The translations under genes were made by a program, and so were the position numbers. Below, one piece after another: positions 2,765 to 14,576 of a stretch of 22,372 nt of DNA. This stretch comes from a virus: IMG/VR virus record IMGVR_UViG_3300042907_000901, positions 1 through 22,372 of that record, one strand, 5' to 3'. Every line of letters begins with the position of its first letter. Within the stretch, counting starts at the first letter, position 1. The notes under the pieces were generated by a model. That model was not told where the DNA came from. It saw only the letters and a program-made list of their open reading frames with translations, and made no database searches.

Positions 2765-4321
2765 TTAAAATGGTTGTCTATTTTCATAATCGCTATAAGA
2801 TTCATTTTGAACGGTTTGAGTATTTTCCCTAACAAATAGGAATGGAGTGCCTTTCTTTTTTTCAAGGTAATTATTGCTATTAAATGGAAAATAATACTTA
2901 TTCGGTTGTGGTGTCATTTTCATTTCATTTTTAAGGACTTTAAGAATGTAAGACATCTTTTCTCTTTCTTTATCAAACCACCTTTCTTTAATATCTTTTG
3001 CAGTTGCTTCAAACTCATTTACATCGTTATTGTTAAAAAAGTCATCAATGTATATTTCAAGTTCTTTTCTCAATCCGTTTTTACTTTCTTTTTTAATAAG
3101 CTCCAGCGAATCAGTTTGTATTTCTTCCTGAGTGAAAACCATGCGCGAATTTGAAAAGTCGATTTCAGGCAGTTGTTCTAAATATTTAAGGAATTTAGGA
3201 ATCTCGTTAAATAAATCGTTTTCAATGTTGGTATTCTTTTTGCCAACGATTGGATTAATTTTCCTAATCCAAAAGCGAATCTCTTCGTCATCTATTCGCA
3301 TAAAGTCGGTTTCCTTATTTGTGCAAACTATAATTTTACCAAAGAATGGCACGCTGTAATGTTGAACAAACTTTTGCGATACTGAAATAGTTTTTGCAGT
3401 TGCTAAGGATTTAAGTTTTTCGACAACGTGTTGCTTTTCAATTACGGTTTCATCAATCATAATTATATTTTTAGTTGCATACGCATCGTTAAAACTACTC
3501 ATTAAATCACTTGGATTGATAAGTGTTGAATTCTCGCCAAATAGCATCTGAATATAATTTAAAAAAGTAGTCTTACCTGTTTCTCTTTCAGTTGAAACTA
3601 AAGAAAGCACTGGCAATATTTGACAAGGATACTCATAAAGTAACTTCATGTACTTTAAACCTAACTCTAATTGCTCGCCAAATATATGACTTAACAAACC
3701 AAGTGTAACGCTAATGTCATCGGTGTAAACAGTATCACTATATTTTGTATGTGGGAATTTGGCATACAAATTATAGCAATTGTTTTTTGATGGAATAAAA
3801 GTCACATTATTAGGAATAATTGTGAAGTCATCAAACTTATAAATTTTGCAAAGTATATTTTTGGTATGATCTTCTTTTATTTCATCTTTTTTCCATGACT
3901 TTAAAATAACATTAGTTCCTGAATAGCGGTCATCTTTTTTAATTACTTTAAAATAATCAGAGCCAACGCGAATATAAGGTATTTCGTTTTGCATTATATT
4001 ATAAGAAACGTGACTCATTGCTTGAAAATAATCGCCTTTAAATTTAACCGTTGTCAATAATATAAATTTACTGAAGCTTTGTCCGGTTGCTAAATCAAAT
4101 GGGTTTGACTTTTTAATGTCAATCTTACCGTTTTTATTTAAAATAAAATTAGGACTTTTAGACAAATCACTTGCATCACTTACAGGGTAAGTTGCTTCAG
4201 TATCTGAAAACGAAATACATTTTTTATCGCCCTCAAATATTTGCTGCATAGTTCCAAATTCGTTAAACCAATCTATTGGATTGTAGATTGAATTCTTTTC
4301 GGGTTTCTTAAATTTGTTCAT
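2765..4321 (-). CDS. SF3-type replicative helicase (D5/DUF5906-like)
   Basis: 518 residues from the ATG at 4321; a TTG two codons earlier is less likely. The C-terminal half has superfamily 3 signatures: Walker A STERETGKTT (about 243-252), Walker B NIIMIDET (285-292), sensor strand GKIIVCTN ending in Asn (328-335), and an Arg (about 349) in EEIRFW as candidate finger. This is the arrangement in DUF5906/D5-like primase-helicase proteins of phages and plasmids. No primase motifs are seen in the N-terminal 200 residues; the primase is probably the separate 4977-5855 gene. It would load at the origin and unwind it. It overlaps the preceding small gene by 14 bases, so translation is likely coupled. 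The gene ends next to iteron-like repeats. Confidence 0.88.
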   Translation of the reverse strand: MNKFKKPEKNSIYNPIDWFNEFGTMQQIFEGDKKCISFSDTEATYPVSDASDLSKSPNFILNKNGKIDIKKSNPFDLATGQSFSKFILLTTVKFKGDYFQAMSHVSYNIMQNEIPYIRVGSDYFKVIKKDDRYSGTNVILKSWKKDEIKEDHTKNILCKIYKFDDFTIIPNNVTFIPSKNNCYNLYAKFPHTKYSDTVYTDDISVTLGLLSHIFGEQLELGLKYMKLLYEYPCQILPVLSLVSTERETGKTTFLNYIQMLFGENSTLINPSDLMSSFNDAYATKNIIMIDETVIEKQHVVEKLKSLATAKTISVSQKFVQHYSVPFFGKIIVCTNKETDFMRIDDEEIRFWIRKINPIVGKKNTNIENDLFNEIPKFLKYLEQLPEIDFSNSRMVFTQEEIQTDSLELIKKESKNGLRKELEIYIDDFFNNNDVNEFEATAKDIKERWFDKEREKMSYILKVLKNEMKMTPQPNKYYFPFNSNNYLEKKKGTPFLFVRENTQTVQNESYSDYENRQPF

Positions 4322-4493
4322 TGTCAATTTGATATATCATTTCTATTCCAAATCCTTTAGCAACATAACATACAACTGATATTTCATCTTCATCTAAATC
4401 TTCATAACTTTTTTCAATTTTTGCAATCAAACTTTGCATTGCTAAACCTGCAAAATAGTCTAATCTTTCTTGTTTTGTTTTTTCGTTTTTCAT
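4308..4493 (-). CDS. Small acidic protein upstream of the helicase (unknown)
   Basis: 61 residues, MKNEKTKQERLDYFAG..., with a probable helix at 6-28 and an acidic YEDLDEDE stretch (about 30-37). No family recognised. It is the first gene after a strongly structured leader RNA and overlaps the helicase start, so it probably serves as translational lead-in to the helicase and may be a helicase partner. Gene reality is supported by position, coupling and good coding composition rather than similarity. Confidence 0.65.
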   Translation of the reverse strand: MKNEKTKQERLDYFAGLAMQSLIAKIEKSYEDLDEDEISVVCYVAKGFGIEMIYQIDNEQI

Positions 4494-4600
4494 AATTTTA
4501 AAAATAAAAAAGCCCTAGTGATTAAGTTTGCTTACGAAGCAAGTAAGGGATTGACTCCTTACACTTAATCATTAGGACTTCTAATGTTTTAATGTCAATC
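4494..4600 (-). promoter_or_regulatory. Structured leader RNA 1: three-way junction with loop-to-upstream pairing and U-tract
   Basis: Read on the minus strand. X = GATTGAC (4600-4594). Outer stem: 4579-4563 with 4527-4511, 17 positions with one G-U and one mismatch. Inside it are two hairpins with no unpaired junction bases: GTAAGG/CCTTAC (4562-4557 with 4548-4543, 8-nt loop AGTCAATC) and TTGCTT/AAGCAA (4542-4528, loop CGT). Seven of the eight loop bases are complementary to X. The outer stem ends in GGGCT followed by TTTTTATTTT and, 17 bases after the stem, the ATG at 4493. It could be an attenuator, a translational control site, or the terminator of a short RNA. Confidence 0.7.
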
Positions 4601-4631
4601 TATGTTACTTCGGTTCGTGACTCCGATGTTG

Positions 4632-4662
4632 CAAATGTACTTTATAATTATCTATTTTGCAA
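4632..4662 (-). promoter_or_regulatory. Bacteroidota promoter TTG-N20-TACATTTG
   Basis: On the minus strand TTG is at 4662-4660 and TACATTTG at 4639-4632, 20 bases apart. Transcription would begin near 4625, producing a leader with a small TCGG/CCGA hairpin (4626-4610) and then structured leader 1, before the small gene and helicase. Confidence 0.72.
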
Positions 4663-4675
4663 ATAAGTAATTGCA

Positions 4676-4975
4676 TTAATTAACCCACTCATAGGTTTCA
4701 ATAATATACTTTTTGCCATTTCTACTAAATAATGGCTTAATACTTGAATAGTCATCTAATGCTATAACAGCAGTACAAATACATAATACTGGTTTATCAT
4801 TGTCAACGTGTGTGCACATAGCTTGTTTACCAATTAAAAAATAATTATCTTTCTCTATTTGTTTTTTATACAATGCAAGTCTTTCAAAAATACTTTGTTT
4901 TTCTTTTTCAAGTTTTGCAATTTGCACATTTAATTGTTCAACTTGCTTTAATAATGTTTGTGGTAGTGTATTCAT
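4676..4975 (-). CDS. Small coiled-coil protein (unknown)
   Basis: 99 residues. Residues about 5-43 form a heptad-like amphipathic helix (LKQVEQLNVQIAKLEKEK...), suggesting a dimeric coiled coil; the C-terminal part has alternating hydrophobic strands and two Cys (CTH, CIC near 54-67). Not recognised. Its ATG lies 1 base after the stop of the primase gene (TAATATG), so it is translated with it. It is the last gene before the helicase promoter and could be a replication accessory, but nothing in the sequence proves this. Confidence 0.7.
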   Translation of the reverse strand: MNTLPQTLLKQVEQLNVQIAKLEKEKQSIFERLALYKKQIEKDNYFLIGKQAMCTHVDNDKPVLCICTAVIALDDYSSIKPLFSRNGKKYIIETYEWVN

Positions 4976-4976
4976 A

Positions 4977-5855
4977 TTATTTGTTTAGATAAGTTGGTTG
5001 TGTAGTTCCTTTGTTAATCATTTCTTTTGCAGTTTGTTTGTATATTGATGCCTTTTGCGATAGATAACAGTTGCCATCAATCATTTGCTGCATTGCATCA
5101 ATAGCATGTTGTTGGTCAATATAACCAGCACCAACATAACCACCCATTAAGTAAGCTGCGGCCCTCAATTGTGGATGACCATTGTCAACAATTACGTTTA
5201 TTTTTTTTGCAATAATACGCTCAATTGTTGAAGTTTTGTCATCAATTATGTATTGTTTTACTGCGGGCCTTACAATTTCAATATGCTTTGTTGACCAAGT
5301 TTGTGCATCATTTCGGTGCAGGATGTCGGCATCGTAACTGATAAACATCGGTAGGATGCAGTTCTTTGGTGCTGTATCAAATCCATTGTAACAGTTAAGG
5401 TGTCGCTCAATGCCTGCATAATAGTGTTTAAATTCATCAACCGAAGTGCAAATCGGAATCTTAACCAGTGCGCGAACACCATGCCTCGAAGCGGATAGCC
5501 ACGCGGTTATTATGTATTTATATTCGTTAAATAAATATTCTTTGAATTCAACCGCCACATCGGATGCTAAATGGTCGAAATCCAAAACAAGTAATCCAGT
5601 CCAATGTTGAATATTGGAATACTTACGCGGGCCGTTAACATAAACACATGGAGTAAATGAATATAGTTTTGACTTTAAAGCTTGCTTTTTCGCCATGTCT
5701 TTTTTTTCCTCTGCAATCCTTATCTCCTCAAATACATTGCGGATATCTTTTTTAGGCGTTCTAATCGCATTTATAAGATATTCAAGCGTAACACTACCTA
5801 ATGGAGTGCTACGTTTGATATCCGCTTCGTAATAGTTGAATGTTATTGGTTGCAT
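4977..5855 (-). CDS. Primase-like protein, BT4734/VirE-N type (AEP fold)
   Basis: 292 residues. The first about 185 match the BT4734-like/VirE N-terminal domain of Bacteroidota elements, an archaeo-eukaryotic-primase-type fold: LLVLDFDHL (88-96) gives the metal-binding D92 and D94, SASRHGVRALVKIP (121-134) gives the conserved S-x-H strand, and FISYDADILHRND (171-183) a third acidic/His element. The C-terminal about 100 residues are helical. It probably makes primers for the SF3 helicase encoded downstream, which has no primase domain of its own. It overlaps the preceding nuclease gene by 13 bases and is followed after 1 base by the coiled-coil gene. The family match is by motif recognition only. 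Confidence 0.8.
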   Translation of the reverse strand: MQPITFNYYEADIKRSTPLGSVTLEYLINAIRTPKKDIRNVFEEIRIAEEKKDMAKKQALKSKLYSFTPCVYVNGPRKYSNIQHWTGLLVLDFDHLASDVAVEFKEYLFNEYKYIITAWLSASRHGVRALVKIPICTSVDEFKHYYAGIERHLNCYNGFDTAPKNCILPMFISYDADILHRNDAQTWSTKHIEIVRPAVKQYIIDDKTSTIERIIAKKINVIVDNGHPQLRAAAYLMGGYVGAGYIDQQHAIDAMQQMIDGNCYLSQKASIYKQTAKEMINKGTTQPTYLNK

Positions 5856-6400
5856 AGTTTATCCATCATAAACTCATAATTGGCTATGTGAACATTTGTG
5901 TAATCAATACCGTTTGGATGTATCTTATGCTCAAATACTGGTTTATTGTTGATACTAAACTGATAGCCTAATGGTTTCTTTCGCACTTCACCAATGTTGA
6001 ACACACCAAGAAAACCGTTAAAAGAATGGTGATCATGTAGCTCCTCATGTCTATCGATGTGCAATTCTACTCCATCAATAATTGTTGATTGCTCATTTAA
6101 AATAAAATAGCTATAAGATAAAGGTGGGCAAATTAAAACAATAGCTTTAACAAATTCGCCTGGTTTATATTCCCACTCTGCGGTTGTGTATCTTTCGGCT
6201 TGCTTAATGTACTTGCCTATTTCCTCGCCTCTTTTTTTGTCTGGTATTTTGCATTCAATTGCAAAGTGATATTTACCATCAATAGTTAAAAGCAAATCAA
6301 TTCTGTTTTTTTTACACTTGCTTACTACTTCTCTTTGAACTTCAAAATACTTTTTAAATTTTAATTCAAGTTTGTTTACAAATTCTTTTTCTGTTTTCAT
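5843..6400 (-). CDS. PD-(D/E)xK nuclease-like protein with RecB-type QxxxY
   Basis: 185 residues. NRIDLLL (D35) and HFAIECK (E49, K51) form a PD-(D/E)xK active site on two strands, and QAERY (67-71) matches the QxxxY motif of the RecB/lambda-exonuclease branch. The C-terminal half (about 100-185) lacks known motifs and is His-rich (HIDRHEELHDHH near 113-124). In a cluster with a RecT-like annealing protein, a nuclease that makes single-stranded ends is expected, so this may be the exonuclease partner; it could also be an accessory endonuclease. It starts 1 base after the stop of the 49-residue gene and overlaps the primase. Confidence 0.75.
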   Translation of the reverse strand: MKTEKEFVNKLELKFKKYFEVQREVVSKCKKNRIDLLLTIDGKYHFAIECKIPDKKRGEEIGKYIKQAERYTTAEWEYKPGEFVKAIVLICPPLSYSYFILNEQSTIIDGVELHIDRHEELHDHHSFNGFLGVFNIGEVRKKPLGYQFSINNKPVFEHKIHPNGIDYTNVHIANYEFMMDKLCNQ

Positions 6401-6401
6401 G

Positions 6402-6551
6402 TTATTTTTTTTTAGGGTTTAGTTTATTGTACTCGGTTTGATTGTAATTAAAGCCATCCACTACCATTGCTTTTTGGATTGCGTGATAAATTGTTTCGGC
6501 CCATGTTGGAAGGATTTTCCCGCTTGGGGATTTTACTAAAAATATTTTCAT
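6402..6551 (-). CDS. 49-residue protein (unknown)
   Basis: Begins MKIFLVKSPSGKILPTW and ends with Lys-rich NPKKK. A short beta strand is followed by an amphipathic helix (WAETIYHAIQKAM, about 17-29) and a small acidic end. No family recognised. It starts 17 bases after the base of structured leader RNA 2, and its TAA lies 1 base before the nuclease ATG, so it is probably a real lead gene of the nuclease-primase operon. Like the 61-residue gene before the helicase, it places a tiny reading frame between a structured leader and a replication enzyme. Confidence 0.6.
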   Translation of the reverse strand: MKIFLVKSPSGKILPTWAETIYHAIQKAMVVDGFNYNQTEYNKLNPKKK

Positions 6552-6648
6552 TTAATTAAATAAAGAAACCCCTACCAAATTGCGCCACCCGCCAAGGGGC
6601 AACAATAAGATAGGGGCTATGTTAAAAATGTCTTTCACTTTGGCGGGT
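6552..6648 (-). promoter_or_regulatory. Structured leader RNA 2: 9-bp loop-to-upstream pairing
   Basis: Minus strand: X = ACCCGCCAA (6648-6640). Outer stem CCCCTA/TAGGGG (6616-6611 with 6574-6569, extendable by a G-U and an A-U). Inner hairpin TTGCCCC/GGCGCAA (6602-6596 with 6586-6580, one mismatch) with loop TTGGCGGGT (6595-6587), the exact complement of X over 9 bases. The outer stem is followed by TTTCTTTATTT and, after 17 bases, the ATG at 6551. Full loop pairing and the inner hairpin are sterically hard to hold together, which suggests two alternative folds. Confidence 0.75.
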
Positions 6649-6659
6649 TATTTGGGATG

Positions 6660-6690
6660 TAAATATAAGTAATAATTACTTAATCTGCAA
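6660..6690 (-). promoter_or_regulatory. Near-consensus promoter TTG-N20-TATATTTA with a palindrome in the spacer
   Basis: Minus strand TTG at 6690-6688 and TATATTTA at 6667-6660; the last base differs from TAnnTTTG. A perfect 7+1+7 palindrome AAGTAATAATTACTT fills 6667-6681 between the two boxes and could bind a repressor. It overlaps the end of the Gp157 gene. Transcription would start near 6653, just before X of leader RNA 2. Confidence 0.5.
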
Positions 6691-7170
6691 ATTACGATGT
6701 GTTGCAATGCTGCATCCAGCAATATCAACACCATCCTTTAATGCTGCCTTAATAGCAGCTTTATCGGCTTGTTCGGTTACCTTAACCACCTTGTATGCAG
6801 CAGGCAGTTGGTTGACATCTTGCACCTCAACTGTTTCCGATTTGCGAAAGTTAATCTTTACCAATGGTGTCTTTATTTCTTCAATGCTAAATAAATCCAT
6901 TGCGTGTTTAATACGATCCTTTAAATATTCGCTTGCCTTTTCGCGTTGTTTCTTTGCTGCCTGCAATCTCTTAATTTCAGCCTCAATAATTTCAACATCA
7001 GCATCCATTTGCTTTATAACAAACGAATAAGCAACTGATTTGTTTTGCAGTTGTTCTTCTGTAATGGCAAGTGCTTCCTCAAGAGAGGGGGTTAATTCAC
7101 CCCCATTCTCTATAAGTTCTTCGGCTAACTGATTGTAATTTTGTTCGATTTGATAGATTGTTAGTTTCAT
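6676..7170 (-). CDS. Siphovirus Gp157-family protein
   Basis: 164 residues. Pattern of the Gp157 family: N-terminal IYQIEQNYNQL, a Glu-rich middle, a long coiled coil (about 45-92, KQMDADVEIIEAEIKRLQAAKK), then SIEEIKTPLVKINFRKSETVEVQDVNQLPAAYKVVK (beta strands) and a Lys/Ala-rich end. Members lie next to SSB and annealing genes in many phages and were linked to phage resistance in Streptococcus thermophilus; a biochemical role is not established. Its ATG overlaps the RecT-like stop by one base (TAATG). The length is normal for the family. Confidence 0.85.
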   Translation of the reverse strand: MKLTIYQIEQNYNQLAEELIENGGELTPSLEEALAITEEQLQNKSVAYSFVIKQMDADVEIIEAEIKRLQAAKKQREKASEYLKDRIKHAMDLFSIEEIKTPLVKINFRKSETVEVQDVNQLPAAYKVVKVTEQADKAAIKAALKDGVDIAGCSIATHRNLQIK

Positions 7171-7844
7171 TATTCTGCAGGTGTTAATTTGGTTTTCATT
7201 TCATCCTTTGCTGCTAATACTCGTAGGTCTAATCGTTGCGCTTTGGTAATCTTTCCCCATACCGCTTTGATTTCATCAAGTGATACGCACACTTGAATGT
7301 CATTAATAATCTCATCAATAGTTGTGTCAACTTCGATGTGGGTAGCCTCTTCAGTAGTTACCACTTGCATTTCCTCTGGCACATACACTGGCCCGCTAAA
7401 TATGTCGGGGCAATACCATTTCACACCATTACTGATAGCCCTTGCAAATAGCATATTCTTTGGGAATTTGTCGATATTCTTGGTTAGTGCTTTCCTTGCA
7501 TCCTCAATAGTGAATGTGCTATTACCTATCTTTGTGTTACCTTGATAAAAGTCAATGCTGCAAACCTTTTCAGATGCTTCTACAACACGATAGTCATACT
7601 TGCCACTACCTTTAAGTCTTGATGCTATTAAACCAGCACCAATGGTCGGCTTTCCTTGAATTATATGAATACCAGTCATTGAGGCAAATGGAGGTATTCC
7701 TATTTCTTGCCCTGCGGATATTTTGACCATTGCTTGTGCAACACTTTTGATGTCGGTAAACATTCCGCTTTCATAAAATGCTTTACTGATATTCATTATA
7801 TCAGTAGTGTTAATTGTTGTTACTGTACTTACTTGTGTGTTCAT
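7170..7844 (-). CDS. RecT-like single-strand annealing protein
   Basis: 224 residues. SGMFTDIKSVAQAMVKISAGQEIGIPPFASMTGIHIIQGKPTIGAGLIASRL (26-77) and FPKNMLFARAISNGVKWYCPDIFSGPVYVPEE (127-158) match the phage annealase group usually annotated as RecT. It pairs complementary single strands in recombination and concatemer formation. The tail (about 160-224) is acidic then basic and variable. Neighbours are typical: SSB-like gene upstream, Gp157 and a PD-(D/E)xK nuclease downstream. It is preceded by the A-rich leader AAAAACAAATAACA and no Shine-Dalgarno. Confidence 0.8.
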   Translation of the reverse strand: MNTQVSTVTTINTTDIMNISKAFYESGMFTDIKSVAQAMVKISAGQEIGIPPFASMTGIHIIQGKPTIGAGLIASRLKGSGKYDYRVVEASEKVCSIDFYQGNTKIGNSTFTIEDARKALTKNIDKFPKNMLFARAISNGVKWYCPDIFSGPVYVPEEMQVVTTEEATHIEVDTTIDEIINDIQVCVSLDEIKAVWGKITKAQRLDLRVLAAKDEMKTKLTPAE

Positions 7845-7866
7845 TGTTATTTGTTTTTAGTTATTA

Positions 7867-8394
7867 TTAATTAATTGAGTTAATAAATTCAATGTGTGCT
7901 TCTTTTGTATCAAGGAGTATGTTATTATCTGCCCTACGATACATTTTACGTTCAGAATCATAAACCATATGTCTATGTGCTTTGTTATGGTCAGCAATTG
8001 ATAATTCAATAGTATCTTTAAAATGTTCTTCATTGTATGACCAATGATGCAATTCGTTGCCTTTAATTTTTGCTTTCATTCTCATTGATATATTTTTTGC
8101 TTTTTGCTTTTCGGGATACTTGGCTTTATATTTAGCCATTGTTATTTTTTTCTTTTCTGCTGTTGGTTTGTGTAGGTCTTTATATCCTAAACGATAGTAT
8201 TTATTGCGATGTCTTTCTTTTTCTTTTTCGGCCCATGCTGGATTTTGGCGAAGCAATTTTTCTCTTGTTTCTGCATCTTTTTTAGTGCAAATTATACATT
8301 TTCCCAAATGTCCATCTCCCATTTTTTTGTGCTTATAATAATCAGAAAGGGGCTTTTCAGTATTACATTTGAAGCATGTTTTTTTATTTTCCAT
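7867..8394 (-). CDS. HNH-like endonuclease with N-terminal zinc finger
   Basis: 175 residues. N-terminal C7xxC10...C33xxC36 (CFKC, CIIC) makes a zinc ribbon. A very basic middle (about 40-112) is followed by an HNH-like module: NELHHWSY (114-120), then DHNKAHRHM (135-143), giving H116/H117 and H136/H140/H142. Such proteins in phages are usually free-standing homing endonucleases. Support: it sits between SSB-like and RecT-like genes that normally neighbour each other, and it has its own promoter 5 bases before its ATG. It is Lys-rich compared with its neighbours. The HNH call is by motif spacing; the second His is not in a fully canonical place. Confidence 0.7.
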   Translation of the reverse strand: MENKKTCFKCNTEKPLSDYYKHKKMGDGHLGKCIICTKKDAETREKLLRQNPAWAEKEKERHRNKYYRLGYKDLHKPTAEKKKITMAKYKAKYPEKQKAKNISMRMKAKIKGNELHHWSYNEEHFKDTIELSIADHNKAHRHMVYDSERKMYRRADNNILLDTKEAHIEFINSIN

Positions 8395-8398
8395 GCCA

Positions 8399-8428
8399 CA
8401 AATGTAATAATTAAAATGGTAATAACAA
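8399..8428 (-). promoter_or_regulatory. Promoter TTG-N19-TACATTTG giving a nearly leaderless mRNA
   Basis: Minus strand TTG at 8428-8426 and TACATTTG at 8406-8399. The HNH ATG is at 8394, only 4 bases after the -7 box, so transcription would begin at about the ATG itself. Confidence 0.72.
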
Positions 8429-8443
8429 AATTAATTTACCATT

Positions 8444-8800
8444 CTAAAATGGAAGATCGCTTTCAACATCATTCTTTTGCACTGGCTTTGCATAGCTTGC
8501 TTGTGGGTCTTCTGTTTGTGTAAACGGATTAGCATCCACTTTCCAACACGCAATCGTATTAAATACCTTAACTTCACCTTGTGGCGATGTCCATTCACGC
8601 CCACGAATATTGATGTGAGCTTCAATGTCCTGACCAACAGATAAAGAATCTGCAAGTGAGCAGGCTTTCTGTTGTAGTTCAACTGATACTATTTGTGGAT
8701 ACTGGTCATTTGTTGTGAGGATTAATTCCCTCTTTGAGAATTTACCATCACTAACTGTTGTCGTTGCGCCTATGCGCTTGATTGTTCCTTTGATTGTCAT
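8444..8800 (-). CDS. SSB-like OB-fold protein (DUF3127-like)
   Basis: 118 residues. MTIKGTIKRIGATTTVSDGKFSKRELILTT is the start of the Bacteroidota DUF3127 family, an OB-type fold; the beta-rich core runs to about residue 90 (FNTIACWKVDANPF). The tail (93-118) is disordered and ends ESDLPF, like the acidic tip (DDDIPF-type) by which bacterial SSBs recruit partners. It very likely coats single-stranded DNA during replication and recombination. It lies just upstream of the HNH and RecT-like genes and is led by an A-rich leader (AAACAATT). The tail motif is the strongest argument for SSB function. Confidence 0.82.
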   Translation of the reverse strand: MTIKGTIKRIGATTTVSDGKFSKRELILTTNDQYPQIVSVELQQKACSLADSLSVGQDIEAHINIRGREWTSPQGEVKVFNTIACWKVDANPFTQTEDPQASYAKPVQKNDVESDLPF

Positions 8801-8810
8801 AATTGTTTAT

Positions 8811-9101
8811 TTATTTGTTTTTGTGTAAGAAATCTGTTAATACCATAGATAAGAATGAGGTGTGCGGAATGTAATCGTTGAATTGCAAGTTAATTTCGTG
8901 CTTGTCGTTAGATACTGCCAAGTCACATAGTTGCATTGTCCAGAACGCATCTTTACGGTCAATAGAAGCGGTTATCTCGTTGTCTTTATTCCACACGTAA
9001 AACGTTTCGTTGTCGCTTTCATACTCGATGCGTTCTTTAGAATTTTCGATTTGCCACGTTGTTGTGGTTGATACTTTTGTGATTACGTTAATTGAGTTCA
9101 T
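8811..9101 (-). CDS. Conserved-looking small protein (unknown)
   Basis: 96 residues, beta-rich at the start (NVITKVSTTTTWQIENSKERIEYESDNETFYVWNKD), followed by a helix and LSMVLTDFLHKNK. Not recognised. It starts after AAACAAACTAACA, the recurrent leader in this block, and lies 10 bases before the SSB-like gene, so it is probably co-transcribed with it. Confidence 0.65.
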   Translation of the reverse strand: MNSINVITKVSTTTTWQIENSKERIEYESDNETFYVWNKDNEITASIDRKDAFWTMQLCDLAVSNDKHEINLQFNDYIPHTSFLSMVLTDFLHKNK

Positions 9102-9131
9102 TGTTAGTTTGTTTTTATTGGGTTTGTAAAT

Positions 9132-9167
9132 GGGGGTGTTTAGCCCCCTTGTTTGTTTTATTTTTTT
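9132..9167 (+). terminator. GC hairpin with T-tract, reading against the surrounding genes
   Basis: GGGGG (9132-9136), 7-nt loop, CCCCC (9144-9148), then a T-rich tract to 9167. On the plus strand this is a plausible intrinsic terminator, yet all nearby genes are on the minus strand. On the minus strand it is a leader hairpin 30 bases before the ATG at 9101. Confidence 0.5.
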
Positions 9168-9324
9168 AAAGTCCAGTTACTTTGTAGTTAAATAATTCAT
9201 TACCTATCTTTATGGCAAATTCTTTTTTAAAATATTCAATTGCTTCTTTAAGGTTTTTACTTTTTTGGGTCGTTATGTGAAACCATCCATAACGGCCTTT
9301 TTTGTATAAATTAAAGTATTTCAT
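9166..9324 (-). CDS. 52-residue basic protein (unknown)
   Basis: Begins MKYFNLYKKGRYGWFHITTQK and continues SKNLKEAIEYFKKEFAIKIGNELFNYKVTGL. Beta-hairpin then amphipathic helix then strand, rich in Lys and aromatic residues; it may bind nucleic acid, but no family is recognised. Its ATG overlaps the stop of the upstream 59-residue gene (ATGA), so the two are translationally coupled. Confidence 0.6.
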   Translation of the reverse strand: MKYFNLYKKGRYGWFHITTQKSKNLKEAIEYFKKEFAIKIGNELFNYKVTGL

Positions 9325-9500
9325 TTTGTAATATTATTATCAATTATAAATTGAGCCATTTTTCTTAATCCATTAACGCCTTTTCTATCTTGATTTGAAA
9401 AATTTACCATTACTTTATTGTAACGTTCCATAGGACTTAAAGAATCCCATACTTTATACCCTTCTTGTAATTTAGCTGATTTAATTTCTGTTCTTGTCAT
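9321..9500 (-). CDS. 59-residue helical protein (unknown)
   Basis: MTRTEIKSAKLQEGYKVWDS, then LSPMERYNKVMVNFSNQDRKGVNGLRKMAQFIIDNNITK. Basic and mostly helical; no family recognised. It is the first gene after a good promoter at 9524-9552 and is preceded by the repeat AACAACAACAAC. Its end overlaps the next gene by 4 bases. Confidence 0.62.
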   Translation of the reverse strand: MTRTEIKSAKLQEGYKVWDSLSPMERYNKVMVNFSNQDRKGVNGLRKMAQFIIDNNITK

Positions 9501-9523
9501 GTTGTTGTTGTTATTTGTTGATG

Positions 9524-9552
9524 CAAATGTACACTTAAATTCATTACCTCAA
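9524..9552 (-). promoter_or_regulatory. Promoter TTG-N18-TACATTTG
   Basis: Minus strand TTG at 9552-9550 and TACATTTG at 9531-9524, leading to the ATG at 9500 through a leader made of CAACAAATAACAACAACAAC. The intergenic gap (9501-9579) holds nothing else. Confidence 0.72.
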
Positions 9553-9579
9553 AATAATATTTTCAACTAAAGTGTTAAT

Positions 9580-9828
9580 TTATGTTAAATATGCTTTAAG
9601 AAAATCATAAATCATAAAATGTTGTGGCTTCCACCGGTCAACTTTACCATTCATTAAACGCGCAATACCTGGCCGAGTGTATCCAAATTGTTTAGCCGCT
9701 TCAGTAATTGGGTTGCATTTAGCGGGTCGCGATCCATTATGCTCAACAAGTGCCAACATCTGTTTGTATTCTTGTTTAAGTTGGGTGTTGCTTGGTTTGA
9801 TTCTTGGTTGTTCTGCGGTTATGTTCAT
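9580..9828 (-). CDS. Small HTH-like DNA-binding protein (putative)
   Basis: 82 residues. ITEAAKQFGYTRPGIARLMNGKVDRW (about 41-66) reads as a helix-turn-helix: first helix with AAKQFGYT, turn, recognition helix RPGIARLMNG. The N-terminus is basic (RIKPSNTQLKQEYKQM). It is probably a transcription regulator or DNA-binding accessory. It overlaps the upstream 125-residue gene by 4 bases (ATGA). The exact family is not known. Confidence 0.6.
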   Translation of the reverse strand: MNITAEQPRIKPSNTQLKQEYKQMLALVEHNGSRPAKCNPITEAAKQFGYTRPGIARLMNGKVDRWKPQHFMIYDFLKAYLT

Positions 9829-10202
9829 ACTTCTGACATTATTAATAACTGATTTGTATTTGTTTTTTTAGCCACCTTATACGCGGCATGTAGTTTGGCC
9901 CTTATTTTATCTCTAAACAGTTGCCCATCTATCCATACACGAAATTCTTGTGTCCATTCCTTTTCGATAATTTTCGGTTTGTACTTTAGCAGCTCCACAA
10001 CCGTTGCCAATATCTGCACCACTTCAAACTTCTTTACGTGAAATAACATAGCGATTTCAACTTGTGTAAGTCCTGCATTATGCTTTAGCCACATATCCCA
10101 GTGCTTTGGGTCTATTGCTTCAGGTCTTATGATGTTAACGTAAGCATCACTAATGTAGCGGCTTATCTTACGGTTGCGTGTTTTAATTAACTCCTTTGGC
10201 AT
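9825..10202 (-). CDS. Putative HTH protein (unknown family)
   Basis: 125 residues. NAGLTQVEIAMLFHVKKFEVVQIL (about 42-65) has the form of a helix-turn-helix ('T..EIA..F.V....V'). The flanks are basic, and the C-terminal helix (LFRDKIRAKLHAAYKVAKK) is strongly amphipathic. It may be a transcriptional regulator for the early genes. Coupled on both sides: its start overlaps the 55-residue gene by 20 bases and its stop overlaps the next ATG. Confidence 0.58.
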   Translation of the reverse strand: MPKELIKTRNRKISRYISDAYVNIIRPEAIDPKHWDMWLKHNAGLTQVEIAMLFHVKKFEVVQILATVVELLKYKPKIIEKEWTQEFRVWIDGQLFRDKIRAKLHAAYKVAKKTNTNQLLIMSEV

Positions 10203-10350
10203 TGCGTATGTTATATTGCATTAATACCAGTGCTGAATGTATGGCCTCTGCATTGCCACCTTTGTACGTTAATTTCGCGCCACCTTTTGGAGTGTACGCA
10301 TCGGGGTTGTTTCGGTAACCGAAAAGTAAGCGTTGGATAAGTTGTTTCAT
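10183..10350 (-). CDS. 55-residue protein (unknown)
   Basis: MKQLIQRLLFGYRNNPDAYT, then PKGGAKLTYKGGNAEAIHSALVLMQYNIRNAKGVN. Basic, with a short amphipathic N-terminal helix and a C-terminal helix; not recognised. It starts after the leader AACAACTAACATT and overlaps the HTH gene by 20 bases. Confidence 0.55.
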   Translation of the reverse strand: MKQLIQRLLFGYRNNPDAYTPKGGAKLTYKGGNAEAIHSALVLMQYNIRNAKGVN

Positions 10351-10371
10351 AATGTTAGTTGTTTTGTTAGT

Positions 10372-10575
10372 TTATATTCCTGCTTTAAGTTTAAAGTCGT
10401 TAAGTATTTCTACAAGTTCATCAATGTTGTCAATAGCCCATCGTTCTGTTTCAAAAACTATATATTTACATGCTCCATTATCGTTTGTAAACATTTTAAT
10501 TAATTGCCAGTCTTGGCTTGATTCATCACATTCTTGGGTGTATGTTATTGATATTTCTTCTATTAGTGCTTGCAT
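10372..10575 (-). CDS. 67-residue acidic protein (unknown)
   Basis: MQALIEEISITYTQECDESS and on to DELVEILNDFKLKAGI: strand, acidic turn, strand, C-terminal helix, overall acidic. No family recognised. Acidic proteins of this size in early phage operons often act by binding host proteins, but there is no direct sign here. It lies between two other small genes with short gaps. Confidence 0.6.
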   Translation of the reverse strand: MQALIEEISITYTQECDESSQDWQLIKMFTNDNGACKYIVFETERWAIDNIDELVEILNDFKLKAGI

Positions 10576-10580
10576 TTTGT

Positions 10581-10853
10581 TTAGTTGTTTGATATTTTAT
10601 CAATAGTAATATTATACTCCATTAAGTTGCTCATAAATTGTTTTAATTCTTGAAGAGATTTTTTAATATAAACAACTGATAATTTATTTTTCTTAATCCT
10701 ATTAACATAAGATTCTAATATCTTAAATTCTAAATCTGTGCAATATTCAGTTATTGTTACCCATCCATAAGTGTTTTCCTTGTGAGTTCCATTGTCTAAA
10801 TGAAAGTTTTGTTGCTTTTCGTTAAATTCTAATCTAAATAATTTTTGTGTCAT
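10581..10853 (-). CDS. First small gene of the leftward block (unknown)
   Basis: 90 residues from the ATG at 10853 (MTQKLFRLEFNEKQQNFHLD...); a TTG start 27 bases upstream falls inside the promoter element and is rejected. N-terminal beta strands, then a helix-rich basic C-terminus (YVNRIKKNKLSVVYIKKSLQELKQFM). Not recognised. The leader AACTAACAAT is typical of this block. Confidence 0.6.
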   Translation of the reverse strand: MTQKLFRLEFNEKQQNFHLDNGTHKENTYGWVTITEYCTDLEFKILESYVNRIKKNKLSVVYIKKSLQELKQFMSNLMEYNITIDKISNN

Positions 10854-10877
10854 ATTGTTAGTTGTTAAAAGTTTCGG

Positions 10878-10885
10878 CAAACCTA
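10878..10885 (-). promoter_or_regulatory. Putative -7 element TAGGTTTG of the leftward early block
   Basis: Minus strand TAGGTTTG matches TAnnTTTG and lies 25 bases before the ATG at 10853. No TTG is found at the -33 distance, so it is weaker than the opposing promoter. The intervening 10886-10910 is AT-only. Confidence 0.45.
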
Positions 10886-10910
10886 CTAATAATATTTTTA
10901 AAAATAAAAT

Positions 10911-10940
10911 TTGTATTTAAAAAAGATTACTTTATATTTG
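10911..10940 (+). promoter_or_regulatory. Promoter TTG-N19-TATATTTG of the rightward block
   Basis: TTG at 10911-10913 and TATATTTG at 10933-10940, leading to the ATG at 10963 through AAACTAATAACT. Together with the element at 10878-10885 it makes a compact divergent control region of about 80 bases. Confidence 0.72.
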
Positions 10941-10962
10941 CCAAAATTTAAAACTAATAACT

Positions 10963-11130
10963 ATGGAAACAACACTAACATTACATTGGGAGTACGAAGA
11001 AACCGATAGAGAAAACAACATTAGAGGTGGATGGGTGCTAACCGACATCACAAATGGAAAAACATCAGTACATTTAAGCCCTAAATTAGAACAATTATTA
11101 AATGAGGAATTAGATCCCGAAAACTTTTAA
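10963..11130 (+). CDS. 55-residue acidic protein (unknown)
   Basis: METTLTLHWEYEETDRENNI, then RGGWVLTDITNGKTSVHLSPKLEQLLNEELDPENF. Strands then a C-terminal acidic helix; it resembles no family I recognise. First gene after the rightward promoter; 3 bases before the next ATG. Confidence 0.6.
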   Translation: METTLTLHWEYEETDRENNIRGGWVLTDITNGKTSVHLSPKLEQLLNEELDPENF

Positions 11131-11133
11131 ACT

Positions 11134-11325
11134 ATGAAAACTAAACCATCACTTATCCTATGGGCATTATCAGCCCTTTTTATGTCCTTTTGGGCAATCA
11201 AATTCGCAATGACTGGAGTTTTCTTTGGAAATTCCGAGTTGCTTACCTTTACTTTATCCTTTTGCGCCTCGTTAACCAGTGCGGTGTGTGGTGCAGGTTT
11301 TATGCAGCAGTATTTAAAAAAATGA
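11134..11325 (+). CDS. Small membrane protein, two helices (holin candidate)
   Basis: 63 residues with two hydrophobic segments, about 6-28 (LILWALSALFMSFWAIKFAMTG) and 36-57 (LLTFTLSFCASLTSAVCGAGF), and a basic end YLKK. The size, two membrane spans and position ahead of an endopeptidase gene fit a class II holin, but small membrane proteins are too generic to be sure. The stop overlaps the next gene's start (ATGA). Confidence 0.6.
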   Translation: MKTKPSLILWALSALFMSFWAIKFAMTGVFFGNSELLTFTLSFCASLTSAVCGAGFMQQYLKK

Positions 11326-11738
11326 AACTGCTATACAAACCCACCAATTTAACCTGCGAATTCATTATTTCTGATTTCGCGAAATCAAATGGTGTGCAAA
11401 AGGTTATAGGATTTTCCAGAGGTTGGCATCACTGGAATAGCATTAGGCTTGGAATACGCAAAGAGGAAAACTATTGCGTGTTGTACTTTTATGCGTATAT
11501 TAAAGGGCAAAGAATAATTCAACGGTTAGGTAGATACGCAATAGGTGAGAGAGTCAAGGTTGCGTTACAATGGGATTACTATATAGAATGCAAAGCTAAC
11601 GATGGTTATGCATTTAGAGTTGCACCAAAGTGTTCTTTTCCTATTGGTTATTTATTGTCGCCTTACGCAGAAAAAGATGGTGTAGAGGGTGTTGAAGTGC
11701 CTTTTAATATTGAGATTATTAATTTAAAAATAAGCTAA
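11322..11738 (+). CDS. 138-residue beta-rich protein (unknown)
   Basis: The start is set at the ATG overlapping the previous stop (ATGA), giving MKLLYKPTNLTCEF...; a longer reading from 11160 would cover the membrane protein in another frame. Alternating beta strands with WHHWNSIRLGIR (35-46), YCVLYFYAYIKGQRII (51-66) and RVKVALQWDYYIECKA (77-92) suggest a beta-sandwich, possibly a carbohydrate-binding jelly roll. No catalytic pattern. Followed after 3 bases by the endopeptidase, so perhaps part of the lysis or cell-wall module. Confidence 0.65.
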   Translation: MKLLYKPTNLTCEFIISDFAKSNGVQKVIGFSRGWHHWNSIRLGIRKEENYCVLYFYAYIKGQRIIQRLGRYAIGERVKVALQWDYYIECKANDGYAFRVAPKCSFPIGYLLSPYAEKDGVEGVEVPFNIEIINLKIS

Positions 11739-11741
11739 TTT

Positions 11742-12164
11742 ATGAAACCAAAAGATGAAAGTAAGCCATACGAATCGAGATTAATCGAGGATTTGCATCC
11801 AACACTTGCTAATGCTTATAAGAAAGCAGAAGCGCAATTTAACGCTGCTCACAACGATGTTCACGTTATAATAGTGTGTACTTACAGAAACAATGCAATG
11901 CAAGAAGTTTATTATGCCAAAAGACCAAAAGTATCACTTGCAAGAGCGGGACAGTCAGCCCATAACTACTACCCATCAAGGGCTTTCGATATTGCCTTTG
12001 TAAAAGTCGGCAAACGTGAACTTGACTATTCAGCAAAGCACTTTAAAGAGTTTTGGGAGTTATTGCAAACACATAGTAATAAGTTGACTTGGGGTGGCAA
12101 TTTTAAATCGTTTAAGGATATGCCTCACTATGAATTATCTAACTGGAAAATGACCATCGTATGA
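11742..12164 (+). CDS. M15-type L-alanyl-D-glutamate/D-Ala endopeptidase (endolysin)
   Basis: 140 residues, a single-domain M15 peptidase. The zinc site is clear: SAHNYYPSRAFDIAF (72-86) gives H74 and D83, and WGGNFKSFKDMPHYEL (117-132) gives H129 with the preceding D126 as likely base. TYRNNAMQEVYYA (48-59) is the conserved 'R...Q..Y' stretch of this peptidase. It cuts peptide cross-links of peptidoglycan, acting in the periplasm after membrane permeabilisation. No signal peptide, so it depends on a holin. Neighbours include small membrane proteins and an Rz-like gene. The stop overlaps the next start (ATGA). Confidence 0.9.
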   Translation: MKPKDESKPYESRLIEDLHPTLANAYKKAEAQFNAAHNDVHVIIVCTYRNNAMQEVYYAKRPKVSLARAGQSAHNYYPSRAFDIAFVKVGKRELDYSAKHFKEFWELLQTHSNKLTWGGNFKSFKDMPHYELSNWKMTIV

Positions 12165-12346
12165 CACGCAACACACGCTACACTAATGGTAAGGAGGTAA
12201 TAACATTTGTTAAGATTGATTTTATTGTCATCGGAGGTCGAAAGATTGACCACGTTTATTTTCGCAGGAAAGATAAACACGATTTGATTTTACCCTTGTT
12301 GGAATGGAATTTAAAAGGTAAATTTGAATGGGAAATAATTAATTGA
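12161..12346 (+). CDS. 61-residue protein (unknown)
   Basis: MTRNTRYTNGKEVITFVKID, then a beta-rich rest (FIVIGGRKIDHVYFRRKDKHD...) ending EWEIIN. Basic in the middle, no membrane span. Overlaps the endopeptidase stop by 4 bases and is followed 1 base later by the next ATG, so translation is coupled. Not recognised. Confidence 0.62.
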   Translation: MTRNTRYTNGKEVITFVKIDFIVIGGRKIDHVYFRRKDKHDLILPLLEWNLKGKFEWEIIN

Positions 12347-12347
12347 T

Positions 12348-12602
12348 ATGAATCTAAAACAAAAATACCGCAGCCCCGACAACAAGCAGTTAAAAAAGAT
12401 TGCAGACTATTTAATTTACGTTTTGCTGCCATTCATTCAAACATCTTTAGCACTTGCAGAAACGCAAGGTTTAATCAGTTTAAGACAAGCATTTTGGGGC
12501 GGTTTGGCTGCTACATTCTTGTTGATTAATACTAAATTTTTAACTAAATTCACAACCGAAAAACCAACAAGAACTGCGGTTATTGATGGGGATGGGTGCT
12601 AA
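12348..12602 (+). CDS. Small membrane protein (holin-like)
   Basis: 84 residues with two hydrophobic stretches, about 19-39 (ADYLIYVLLPFIQTSLALAE) and 46-62 (RQAFWGGLAATFLLINTKF), the second ending in a basic/Thr tail (TKFTTEKPTRT). The layout fits a class II holin or a related lysis protein. With the 63-residue gene this gives two candidates in the same operon, perhaps a holin and an antiholin. Assignment is by topology and context. Confidence 0.65.
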   Translation: MNLKQKYRSPDNKQLKKIADYLIYVLLPFIQTSLALAETQGLISLRQAFWGGLAATFLLINTKFLTKFTTEKPTRTAVIDGDGC

Positions 12603-12612
12603 AACAAACAAT

Positions 12613-13179
12613 ATGAAACCACAACACCAACTTATCACATTCGCTATCCTATGCCTATTGTTAGTAATAGGTCTTAATTATTGCGCCAAAGAGAAACCGA
12701 AAACTATTCCATTTGATTACAAATTAGAAGCGGAAATGATTAAAAAGCAATTCGGCATTGAGCAGGCTATTCTACTTAACCAATTGGAGAATGTTAACCG
12801 AAGATTGCAATTTGCGAACAACGCAAAAGATTCGATTAGACAACGCGAAATATCTTTAAGCAACACTAACATAGCTTTGATGAAGAAGTTGCGTCAAAAC
12901 TTACCAAAAGATTGTGACACAGTATTCGTGTTGTGCGATGAGATAATCAATGTTAAAGATTCAAGTTATGCTGCGTTATTTAATGCGTTTCAAGTTTGTG
13001 ATTCAGTATCAACTATTAAGGATAGTTTAATAGTTAACTACAAAGCGGAGAATATCACAGATAGCACGTTGTTAGTTATCAGTAAGCAAGAAACCAAGCA
13101 ACAACGAAGAGGCAAGGTAGCTGCTTGGTGTGTTGGTGGTGCAATGTTTATGCTTTGGTTGTTTGTTGGATTGAAATAA
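12613..13179 (+). CDS. Rz-like membrane protein with long coiled coil
   Basis: 188 residues from the ATG after AAAACAAACAAT; a TTG 10 codons upstream overlaps the previous gene and is rejected. N-terminal membrane anchor at 7-22 (LITFAILCLLLVIGLN), a periplasmic helical rod (about 38-150, many Gln/Asn/Arg and heptads: QLENVNRRLQFANNAKDS...), and a C-terminal hydrophobic segment (167-187). A membrane-tethered coiled coil after a holin and endolysin is the pattern of i-spanin (Rz) proteins, which disrupt the outer membrane. Two anchors at opposite ends are unusual; it may be a unimolecular spanin variant. Confidence 0.6.
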   Translation: MKPQHQLITFAILCLLLVIGLNYCAKEKPKTIPFDYKLEAEMIKKQFGIEQAILLNQLENVNRRLQFANNAKDSIRQREISLSNTNIALMKKLRQNLPKDCDTVFVLCDEIINVKDSSYAALFNAFQVCDSVSTIKDSLIVNYKAENITDSTLLVISKQETKQQRRGKVAAWCVGGAMFMLWLFVGLK

Positions 13180-13192
13180 ATTAGTACATTTG
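13163..13192 (+). promoter_or_regulatory. Promoter TTG-N19-TACATTTG before the ABC-GNAT leader
   Basis: TTG at 13163-13165 (inside the end of the Rz-like gene) and TACATTTG at 13185-13192. The start of transcription would be near 13199, two or three bases before segment X of leader RNA 3. Confidence 0.72.
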
Positions 13193-13201
13193 CAGCGTTG
13201 T

Positions 13202-13276
13202 GTAGGAGCAATATAAAGAAATTATAACAAAAGCCTTGACTTTAGCGACCTCCTACTCGCTATTGTTGAGGTTTTT
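13202..13276 (+). promoter_or_regulatory. Structured leader RNA 3 with overlapping terminator-like stem
   Basis: X = GTAGGAG (13202-13208). Outer stem AAAAGCCTTGAC (13229-13240) with GTTGAGGTTTTT (13265-13276), 12 pairs including three G-U. Inner hairpin TAGCGA/TCGCTA (13243-13248, 13257-13262), loop CCTCCTAC, of which CTCCTAC (13250-13256) is complementary to X. A T-tract at 13272-13277 follows. Start codon 16 bases after the outer stem (20 if the A-U pairs at its base are not counted). Confidence 0.72.
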
Positions 13277-13292
13277 TAATTTAAGTAACAAT

Positions 13293-14450
13293 ATGAAAAT
13301 AAATTTAAGTCACAAAATTAAAAATGATAAATACACAGAATATGTGTATGAATCATTTGACATTCAGAACAGAGAACAATCAAATGTATTAATAGATGCC
13401 AATTTAGAGCATTTGCCAAATAATTGGAATATAGGTGTAATTTATGGCGGAAGCGGAACAGGTAAAACTACAATATTAAAAAAATATTTTAAAAAAGAAA
13501 TAGATAAATCATATTTTGATAATTCAAAATCTTTAATATCCAACTTTAATTGGGTAGAGCCAAAAGATGCCGCTTTTTTATTAAGTGCTATGGGATTAAG
13601 TTCTGTGCCTACTTGGCTGCGACCTTTCAACACATTATCAAATGGAGAGCAATATAGAGCAAATTTAGCTTATATTGTAGGAAATTCAAAAGATAATGAA
13701 ATTATTTTAATTGATGAATACACATCAGTAGTGGATAGAGATGTAGCAAAAGCAATGAGCAATGCCTTGCAAAAGTATATTCGCAAAACCAACAAAAAAA
13801 TAGTTTTAGCATCTTGCCATTTTGATATTATGGAATGGCTGCAACCAAATTGGATTTATTCACCATCTAAAGGGCGTCTTGAAATAGCGTCATTGCTTCG
13901 GCAAAAACCAACAATTGAACTTTCGATATTTCGATGCAGATATGAAACTTGGAACTTATTCAAACAACATCATTATTTAACCGAAGATTTAAATTTAGCT
14001 GCCAAATGTTTTGTAGCTATTTTTAATGGTAAGCCTATTTGTTTTATAGCTATACTCCCAAGCCCAAGCGGGTATTATAAGAATGGATTTAGAGTTAGCA
14101 GGCTTGTTGTTATGCCTGATTTTCAAGGGTTAGGGGTTGGATGTAAAATACTTAATTACATTTCTTCTTTATATTTAGCAAATAATAAAACAATGTATAT
14201 TAAGACATCTAATCCAAGTTTGACTAATAATTTAGAAAATAATACAAATTGGAAAAAAGTAAAGGATTTTAAAAATATTAATTCTTTAAAAAAGCATAAC
14301 GAAAAGTTTGAAAATAAACATAAAATAAAGGTTTCTATTTCAAAGTCTTTTAAATATATTGGAGAAGCATCAACAGAAGATTTATCAATTATAAAATTTA
14401 AGAGTGAAATATACAAAGATGTTGCTCAAAACCAAATATCAATGTTTTAA
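13293..14450 (+). CDS. ABC-type ATPase fused to a GNAT (Mom-like) acyltransferase
   Basis: 385 residues from the ATG; a TTG start at 13236 lies inside the leader structure and is rejected. N-terminal ABC ATPase: Walker A GGSGTGKTT (52-60), signature LSNGEQ (115-120), Walker B EIILIDE (136-142), D-loop VVD (146-148), H-switch H176. After about residue 205 a GNAT domain: FKQHHYLT (223-230), strand CFVAIFNGKPICF (239-251), RVSRLVVMPDFQGLGVGCKIL (267-287) with the acyl-CoA loop QGLGVG (278-283), then IKTSNP (303-308). No membrane segment, so not a transporter. Homologues in phages are usually labelled 'ABC transporter'; the GNAT half resembles Mu Mom. Possible role: ATP-gated modification of DNA or another nucleic acid. 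The substrate is unknown. Confidence 0.82.
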   Translation: MKINLSHKIKNDKYTEYVYESFDIQNREQSNVLIDANLEHLPNNWNIGVIYGGSGTGKTTILKKYFKKEIDKSYFDNSKSLISNFNWVEPKDAAFLLSAMGLSSVPTWLRPFNTLSNGEQYRANLAYIVGNSKDNEIILIDEYTSVVDRDVAKAMSNALQKYIRKTNKKIVLASCHFDIMEWLQPNWIYSPSKGRLEIASLLRQKPTIELSIFRCRYETWNLFKQHHYLTEDLNLAAKCFVAIFNGKPICFIAILPSPSGYYKNGFRVSRLVVMPDFQGLGVGCKILNYISSLYLANNKTMYIKTSNPSLTNNLENNTNWKKVKDFKNINSLKKHNEKFENKHKIKVSISKSFKYIGEASTEDLSIIKFKSEIYKDVAQNQISMF

Positions 14451-14456
14451 CACATT

Positions 14457-14486
14457 TTGAAACATTAATAATTTTCCCTATCTTTG
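14457..14486 (+). promoter_or_regulatory. Promoter TTG-N19-TATCTTTG of a short terminated transcript
   Basis: TTG at 14457-14459 and TATCTTTG at 14479-14486. The start would be near 14493, about 60 bases before the T-tract of the hairpin at 14521-14544. Confidence 0.68.
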
Positions 14487-14520
14487 CCTCGTTCAATGTT
14501 AGTTAAGTTATTTAGGTCAT

Positions 14521-14553
14521 AGCCCTTGCAGAAATGTGAGGGCTTTGTTATTT
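14521..14553 (+). terminator. 10-bp GAAA-tetraloop hairpin plus T-rich tail
   Basis: AGCCCTTGCA (14521-14530), loop GAAA, TGTGAGGGCT (14535-14544), ten pairs with two G-U, then TTGTTATTT. A good intrinsic terminator in the gene direction. With the promoter at 14457-14486 it would define an RNA of about 60 nt; with read-through it is a leader hairpin. Confidence 0.68.
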
Positions 14554-14576
14554 GTATGAATAAATCACTATCTTTG
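14545..14576 (+). promoter_or_regulatory. Second promoter TTG-N21-TATCTTTG, inside the terminator tail
   Basis: TTG at 14545-14547, the first bases after the hairpin, and TATCTTTG at 14569-14576, leading to the ATG at 14592 through AAACTAACAACA. It restarts transcription immediately after the short terminated RNA. Confidence 0.68.

Follow-up and report, generated by a model that had tools for sequence, protein, structure and literature searches.

How can three leaders in one phage genome follow the same structural plan with unrelated sequences, and what might such a plan be for? The question is raised by the IMG/VR virus record IMGVR_UViG_3300042907_000901, whose whole stretch of 22,372 bases was analysed (the window) and which, judged by its promoters and relatives, is probably a Bacteroidota phage; its BT4734-like protein has distant homologues in Cellulophaga and Flavobacterium phages. 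An original prediction had placed three leaders in the window, A and B on the minus strand and C on the plus strand, each with a 5' segment X complementary to the loop of a downstream hairpin, and their positions and complementarities are confirmed by the sequence. The common plan comprises an RNA of approximately 100 bases in which a TAnnTTTG promoter is followed by a 5' hairpin (P1) with X in its loop, an A-rich linker of approximately 21 nucleotides (nt), a long terminator-like stem, a U-rich tract and the start codon. X has a length of 7-11 nt and pairs with the loop of the long stem (X'). As X mostly lies within the P1 loop, being an exposed segment elsewhere, many leaders consist of two hairpins with kissing loops. 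P1 around X and a second loop-loop pairing in leader A had been overlooked in the original prediction. The plan was found in dozens of leaders with unrelated sequences across related IMG/VR phage contigs.

Recurrence of the plan in related phages

The three leaders of the window are by themselves suggestive only, since shuffled X regions gave an equal or longer loop match in 405 of 5000 cases for leader A (8%, not significant alone), in 1 of 5000 for leader B (0.02%, striking) and in 72 of 5000 for leader C (1.4%, modest); at the level of sequence, it is the comparison with relatives that settles that the structure is real. Related loci were retrieved with four protein queries (DUF5906, BT4734-like, ATPase-GNAT and terminase), sampling one phage lineage and its neighbours, and were searched with heuristic detectors, some contigs contributing overlapping loci. 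The first detector demanded only promoter, outer stem, U-rich tail and ATG and yielded 102 sequence clusters, 46 of which matched their own X to the loop over at least 7 bases, compared with a mean of 10.7 and a maximum of 22 in 200 permutations with X swapped between clusters. The second detector included the X-loop pairing and yielded 41 clusters, 37 of which were retained once evident false hits were dropped.

Despite the wide ranges permitted by the detector, the dimensions of the leaders are narrow: the promoter end is separated from X by 10 nt (interquartile range, IQR, 9-12), the linker measures 21 nt (IQR 20-24) and X' begins 21 nt after the stem start (IQR 19-23). The ATG follows the stem end after a median of 14 nt (IQR 11-18), and linker length shows no correlation with stem length. 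The P1 stem score around X has a mean of 10.5 versus 5.6 for shuffled flanks, the highest of 500 shuffled means being 7.0. Selection by geometry and pairing, with neither U-tract nor ATG demanded, gave 32 clusters, among which 28 show at least five T in nine positions where the stem ends (12.6% in the background); in most, an ATG lies no more than approximately 25 nt away. An out-of-sample set of 120 loci, retrieved with DUF6291 and PriCT-type primase queries and searched with the detector left fixed, contained 69 leaders, which fall into 24 clusters and include 16 clusters that are new; 67 of the 69 have U-rich ends and almost all have an open reading frame (ORF) close behind, and a first-order Markov version of the same sequences gave 0 leaders. 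In addition, a covariance model built from locus-B-type leaders only recovered, in 0.95 megabases, both leader A (E 0.005) and leader C (E 0.006) of the window.

It went too far to claim that the three leaders already display covariation within one genome, since they cannot be aligned; true covariation comes from the relatives, where the compensatory changes proposed as support for the X-loop helix and the outer stem were sought and found. All four alignments contain many of them, and in three they extend to the X-loop helix, the cells reported here being counts of sequences and not of independent events. In alignment A1, which holds 14 locus-B-type leaders of relatives, 97.8% of the cells are paired and both sides have changed in 18 of 32 pairs, compared with 29-50% paired cells and 0-3 double-changed pairs when the structure is slid by 1-3 columns; its kissing helix is unbroken in 112 cells (100%), with four of eight pairs double-changed. 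The leader A family (alignment A2) is paired in 98.8% of its cells and has double changes in 21 of 42 pairs, both pseudoknot pairings among them, its X-loop helix occurring as GAUUGAC/GUCAAUC, GAUUCAC/GUGAAUC and CUCUAAC/GUUAGAG and its second kissing helix as ACGAA/UUCGU and ACCAA/UUGGU. Five outer-stem pairs covary in the leader B family, in which the same 5 of 10 sequences lack both one C in X and one G in the loop, the X-loop letters being otherwise invariant. The leader C family shows 97.2% paired cells and 12 of 28 double-changed pairs, these changes coming largely from the two members farthest from the rest; the loop of one of these two is misaligned. The kissing helix is thus paired in 96.7-100% of cells, with double-sided changes or matching deletions, as expected for an intramolecular kissing loop or H-type pseudoknot.

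Among isolated non-Watson-Crick pairs of the outer stem, in a register set from Watson-Crick pairs only, 29 are G-U and 1 is A-C, a ratio that points to an element acting as sense-strand RNA and that is somewhat inflated because candidates were chosen with G-U allowed. Together with the compensatory changes in relatives, this supports the predicted selection on RNA structure: it is near certain, from these alignments, that the leader structure is conserved and that selection acts on shape, not on sequence.

The leaders of the window, their genes and their exchange

Feature boundaries were drawn from the sequence, supplemented by alignment and fold for the stems, their inner hairpins and loops and P1 of leader C, by the fold for the 5' hairpin of leader A, by covariation for X of leader A and by joint losses in relatives for X of leader B. 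Leader A (minus strand) starts behind the -7 element TACATTTG (4632-4639) and has a more elaborate form in place of P1 around X: a 5' hairpin TCGG-AGTCACGAA-CCGA (4610-4626) precedes X (GATTGAC, 4600-4594), and the terminator-like stem (4511-4579, arms 4579-4563 and 4527-4511) encloses two inner hairpins, namely P3 with X' GTCAATC in its loop (4555-4549) and TTGCTTCGTAAGCAA (4542-4528) with the kissing loop TTCGT (4538-4534), which as UUCGU forms the second loop-loop pairing with ACGAA at 4618-4614. In relatives L066 and L108, X is GATTCAC and the loop GTGAATC, and the second kissing pair is ACCAA/TTGGT in L019 and L061. The U-rich tract and the ATG (4493-4491) occupy 4491-4511. Behind leader A (2765-4493) lie an ORF of 61 amino acids (4308-4493) and the gene of a DUF5906 protein (2765-4327). 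An exact 15-nt repeat, AGATTGACATTAAAA, occurs both at the X segment of leader A (approximately 4587-4601, minus strand) and inside the DUF5906 gene (approximately 4110-4124), the longest repeats in shuffled sequence being 13-14 nt.

Leader B (minus strand) carries X ACCCGCCAA (6648-6640) within a weak P1 (CAU/GUG), a terminator-like stem (6567-6618, arms 6618-6602 and 6583-6567) with X' TTGGCGGGT in the loop (6595-6587), and the U-rich tract with ATG (6549-6568, ATG 6551-6549). The promoter-proximal placement predicted for all leaders holds, with the correction that the promoter-like element of leader B is TATATTTA (6660-6667), which reads TATATTTG in relative L109. The region behind it (4977-6551) encodes a 49-amino-acid ORF (6402-6551), a PD-(D/E)XK nuclease (5843-6400) and the BT4734-like protein (4977-5855). 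The leaders had been placed ahead of replication or modification genes; early-type genes do follow, but leaders A and B directly precede the 61- and 49-amino-acid ORFs, with the replication or nuclease genes coming next.

Leader C (plus strand) follows the -7 element TACATTTG (13185-13192) and has a strong P1 (GUUG/CAAU; GTTG-t-GTAGGAG-CAAT, 13197-13212) whose loop holds X GTAGGAG (13202-13208). Its terminator-like stem (13230-13275) has arms at 13230-13248 and 13257-13275 and X' CTCCTAC in the loop (13250-13256), and the U-rich tract and ATG (13293-13295) lie at 13272-13295. The gene behind it (13293-14450, plus strand) encodes an ATPase-GNAT fusion, a candidate Mom-like protein. Phages of many phyla carry homologues of this fusion, which is a widespread one (71 GenBank phage records); most of those in the relatives have no leader at the gene, and the leaders found in L158 and L194 alone are unrelated in sequence. 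At 14479-14560 (plus strand), a fourth promoter, TATCTTTG, stands ahead of a hairpin of 10 bp that is capped by a GAAA tetraloop, with a U-rich stretch and an ATG behind it; this arrangement recurs in relatives L067 and L006 and has no X partner.

As judged by sequence homology, the leaders behave as cassettes which are swapped exactly from promoter to ATG between close relatives. The window is 95.7% homologous to relative L005 up to 6551, the ATG behind leader B, and homology resumes from 6657 at 86%; between these points L005 carries in place of leader B and its promoter a leader of the same plan and unrelated sequence, with X GGTCTCAC. At locus A the homology stops at 4496, at the ATG. The gene starting with MKIFLVKSPSGK is paired with at least four leader families, the GTAGGAG family precedes C5 methyltransferases and other genes as well as the ATPase-GNAT gene of the window, and the same X was seen twice in no contig, which may be due to chance. 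Homing endonuclease genes of the GIY-YIG and NUMOD4 types were also seen with kissing-loop leaders of their own (L119 6816, L065 3072 and L124 6465, all plus strand).

A candidate terminator and its alternatives

The explanation that we favour, tentatively, is that the leaders are promoter-proximal conditional intrinsic terminators tuned by an intramolecular kissing loop. A stable hairpin with a U-rich tract immediately after it, the hallmark of intrinsic terminators, was found in 28 of 32 geometry-selected clusters and 67 of 69 out-of-sample leaders, with stable folds. Termination itself, control of read-through, any trigger signal and any insulation between leaders are inferences. The transcript would begin just after the TAnnTTTG promoter and act in cis as leader RNA; the long hairpin and U-tract would form the intrinsic terminator, so that transcription of many messages would stop short of the gene, and the kissing pairing, if formed as the polymerase arrives at the U-tract, would set the frequency of read-through. 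RNA polymerase covers approximately 14 nt of RNA and the X' loop ends approximately 19 nt before the stem end; therefore, the loop should emerge about when the U-tract is made, and pairing would be possible just before the decision. As X' lies inside the loop, its pairing leaves the stem unbroken and could instead alter how fast, or in what geometry, the terminator folds, and so speed, brake or misplace its closure. Candidate triggers would be a factor, the elongation rate or ribosome loading. The kissing letters differ among the leaders of one genome, which would therefore not pair with each other, and the whole cassette can be moved between genes.

The competition between the X-loop pairing and the terminator stem that the original prediction had suggested is not supported: X pairs with the loop and not with an arm, and the minimum-free-energy folds of all three leaders keep the outer stem intact, X and its partner both being unpaired in those of A and C. 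Even without the X-loop pairing the stem is complete, and that pairing does not break it, so a mutually exclusive antiterminator is not the natural reading. Leader C has no leader-peptide ORF between promoter and terminator, its first ATG (+100) being the gene's own start, and in leader A the first ATG (+59) falls within the stem, which does not fit a leader-peptide attenuator. Several points weigh against a conditional terminator as such: transcript starts and ends are placed from sequence alone, some tails would be weak terminators (e.g., UAUUUAUUU in L064 and AAUUUUU in L162), a U-rich tract so close to the ATG may instead have a role in translation, no partner factor came to light, and no clear leader was seen in the isolates P12024S, phi18:1 and lotta8-1 or in the examined stretch of pT24.

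A role in mRNA stability or translation is possible, although we consider it clearly less probable than conditional termination: the leader would be a structural 5' cap in which a 5'-end hairpin and a pseudoknotted hairpin, whose end lies approximately 14 nt before the AUG, protect the message and keep the U-rich tract free as an unstructured ribosome landing site. P1 starts about at the expected transcript start (10 nt from promoter to X), and the ATG follows nearly all clusters at a fairly constant spacing even where none was required; however, stem and U-tract together look like an intrinsic terminator and exceed what a ribosome site needs, and several promoters of the same phage yield short, apparently unstructured leaders. 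It is rather unlikely that the terminated RNA of approximately 100 nt is itself the main product, acting in trans on copies with the same leader, for example those of a superinfecting phage, with the sequence diversity reflecting immunity types. In phage antisense immunity RNAs of the c4 or P4 CI type, a processed leader RNA pairs with its target in trans. A small RNA would likewise be made up of promoter, two hairpins and terminator, the cassettes are replaced exactly between near-identical phages, leader families assort freely with genes without repeating X in one contig, and the tandem units of phage FPSV-S1 (see below), which lack an ORF behind them, lend weak further support. An ORF nevertheless lies at short distance in nearly all cases, the absence of repeated X per contig may simply reflect locus-specific families, and a long-match search of the window for antisense partners gave no trans target of notable length, nothing beyond the 15-nt repeat.

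Still less probable is a put-like RNA that would attach to the host RNA polymerase, through contact with the beta' zinc-binding domain, so that distant terminators are ignored. The put RNA of phage HK022 consists of two stem-loops of approximately 70 nt near early promoters and influences transcription in cis (PMC9378689), and the leaders show two hairpins within approximately 100 nt, directly after promoters that would be of the early type. However, put sites share sequence, whereas the leaders share almost none (37 curated clusters and 16 further new ones) and keep only the loop-loop pairing constant; moreover, the leaders carry their own terminator-like stem and U-tract, followed at once by a start codon. 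A DNA-level element, such as a cruciform, an origin or a recombination site, or mere chance would be most improbable: many genes behind leaders encode DNA-handling products and cassettes are exchanged, but the 29 G-U to 1 A-C pairs, the fixed order of promoter, leader and ATG and the empty Markov control speak against both. A chance origin was refuted. Beyond conditional termination, one speculative and rather improbable extension is that the leaders form a sequence-free RNA class of interchangeable promoter-leader cassettes whose one common trait is a terminator bearing an intramolecular kissing loop, the letters of the kissing pair being an address that would prevent cross-reaction within a genome or among competing phages, i.e., an RNA-based immunity or insulation code.

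Relation to known RNAs

In attenuator leaders and the expression platforms of riboswitches, a terminator-like stem also lies between promoter and gene and upstream elements pair to the stem; in contrast, the X-loop pairing described here is compatible with the terminator stem, leader C lacks a leader peptide and no aptamer model of Rfam matches. Kissing complexes such as ColE1 RNAI/RNAII pair hairpin loops of approximately 7-8 nt over at least 7 bases, whereas the kissing of the leaders is intramolecular and fused to a terminator-like stem. In conjugation operons of mobile elements, the promoter-linked RNA component of conAn governs the passage of intrinsic terminators (PMC8955417). In contrast to the leaders, which have an internal terminator-like stem and no known protein partner, conAn requires a protein as well as an RNA and acts over a large operon. 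GOLLD and ROOL are phage-borne structured RNAs held by kissing loops (PMC12286853), but they are hundreds of nt long, have their own Rfam models and are not leaders.

The expectation that no known RNA family would be recognised was borne out, as the Rfam 15 covariance models gave no match to the window and relatives at gathering scores, nor at E up to 1 or 0.1, and a search of open-access papers found no matching description. A covariance model gave no match in 395 Bacteroidota genomes, with strict filters and no positive control, three Flavobacterium or Psychroflexus genome loci held nothing clear, and among the matches listed from a P1-motif pattern search of IMG/VR almost all were due to chance. 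In the cultured Flavobacterium phage FPSV-S1 (L258), the detector gave no convincing leader, and only weak model matches were obtained whose loops fit poorly on inspection. At 32260-31975 (minus strand) of the same genome, promoter, hairpins and terminator occur as two units in tandem (model match at E 0.005), with no ORF behind them and with unconvincing kissing partners.

RNA families are normally found through conserved sequence plus structure. The leaders turn over their sequence almost freely and keep a tertiary plan with fixed dimensions; a profile model of one type therefore reaches other types weakly, which may explain the blank in Rfam. If the leaders gate early transcription, they would constitute an uncharacterised regulatory layer in Bacteroidota phages, portable between genes (DNA methyltransferase and homing endonuclease genes included), and could readily supply orthogonal RNA regulators for use in Bacteroidota. 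Common to many leaders is also a purine internal loop that separates the lower from the upper stem; with UGAA opposite GGAU or GGA opposite GAA, it resembles tandem G-A pairs and is flanked by stems that are free in sequence (L191 4460, L174 2427, L175 4001 and L124 6465, all plus strand).

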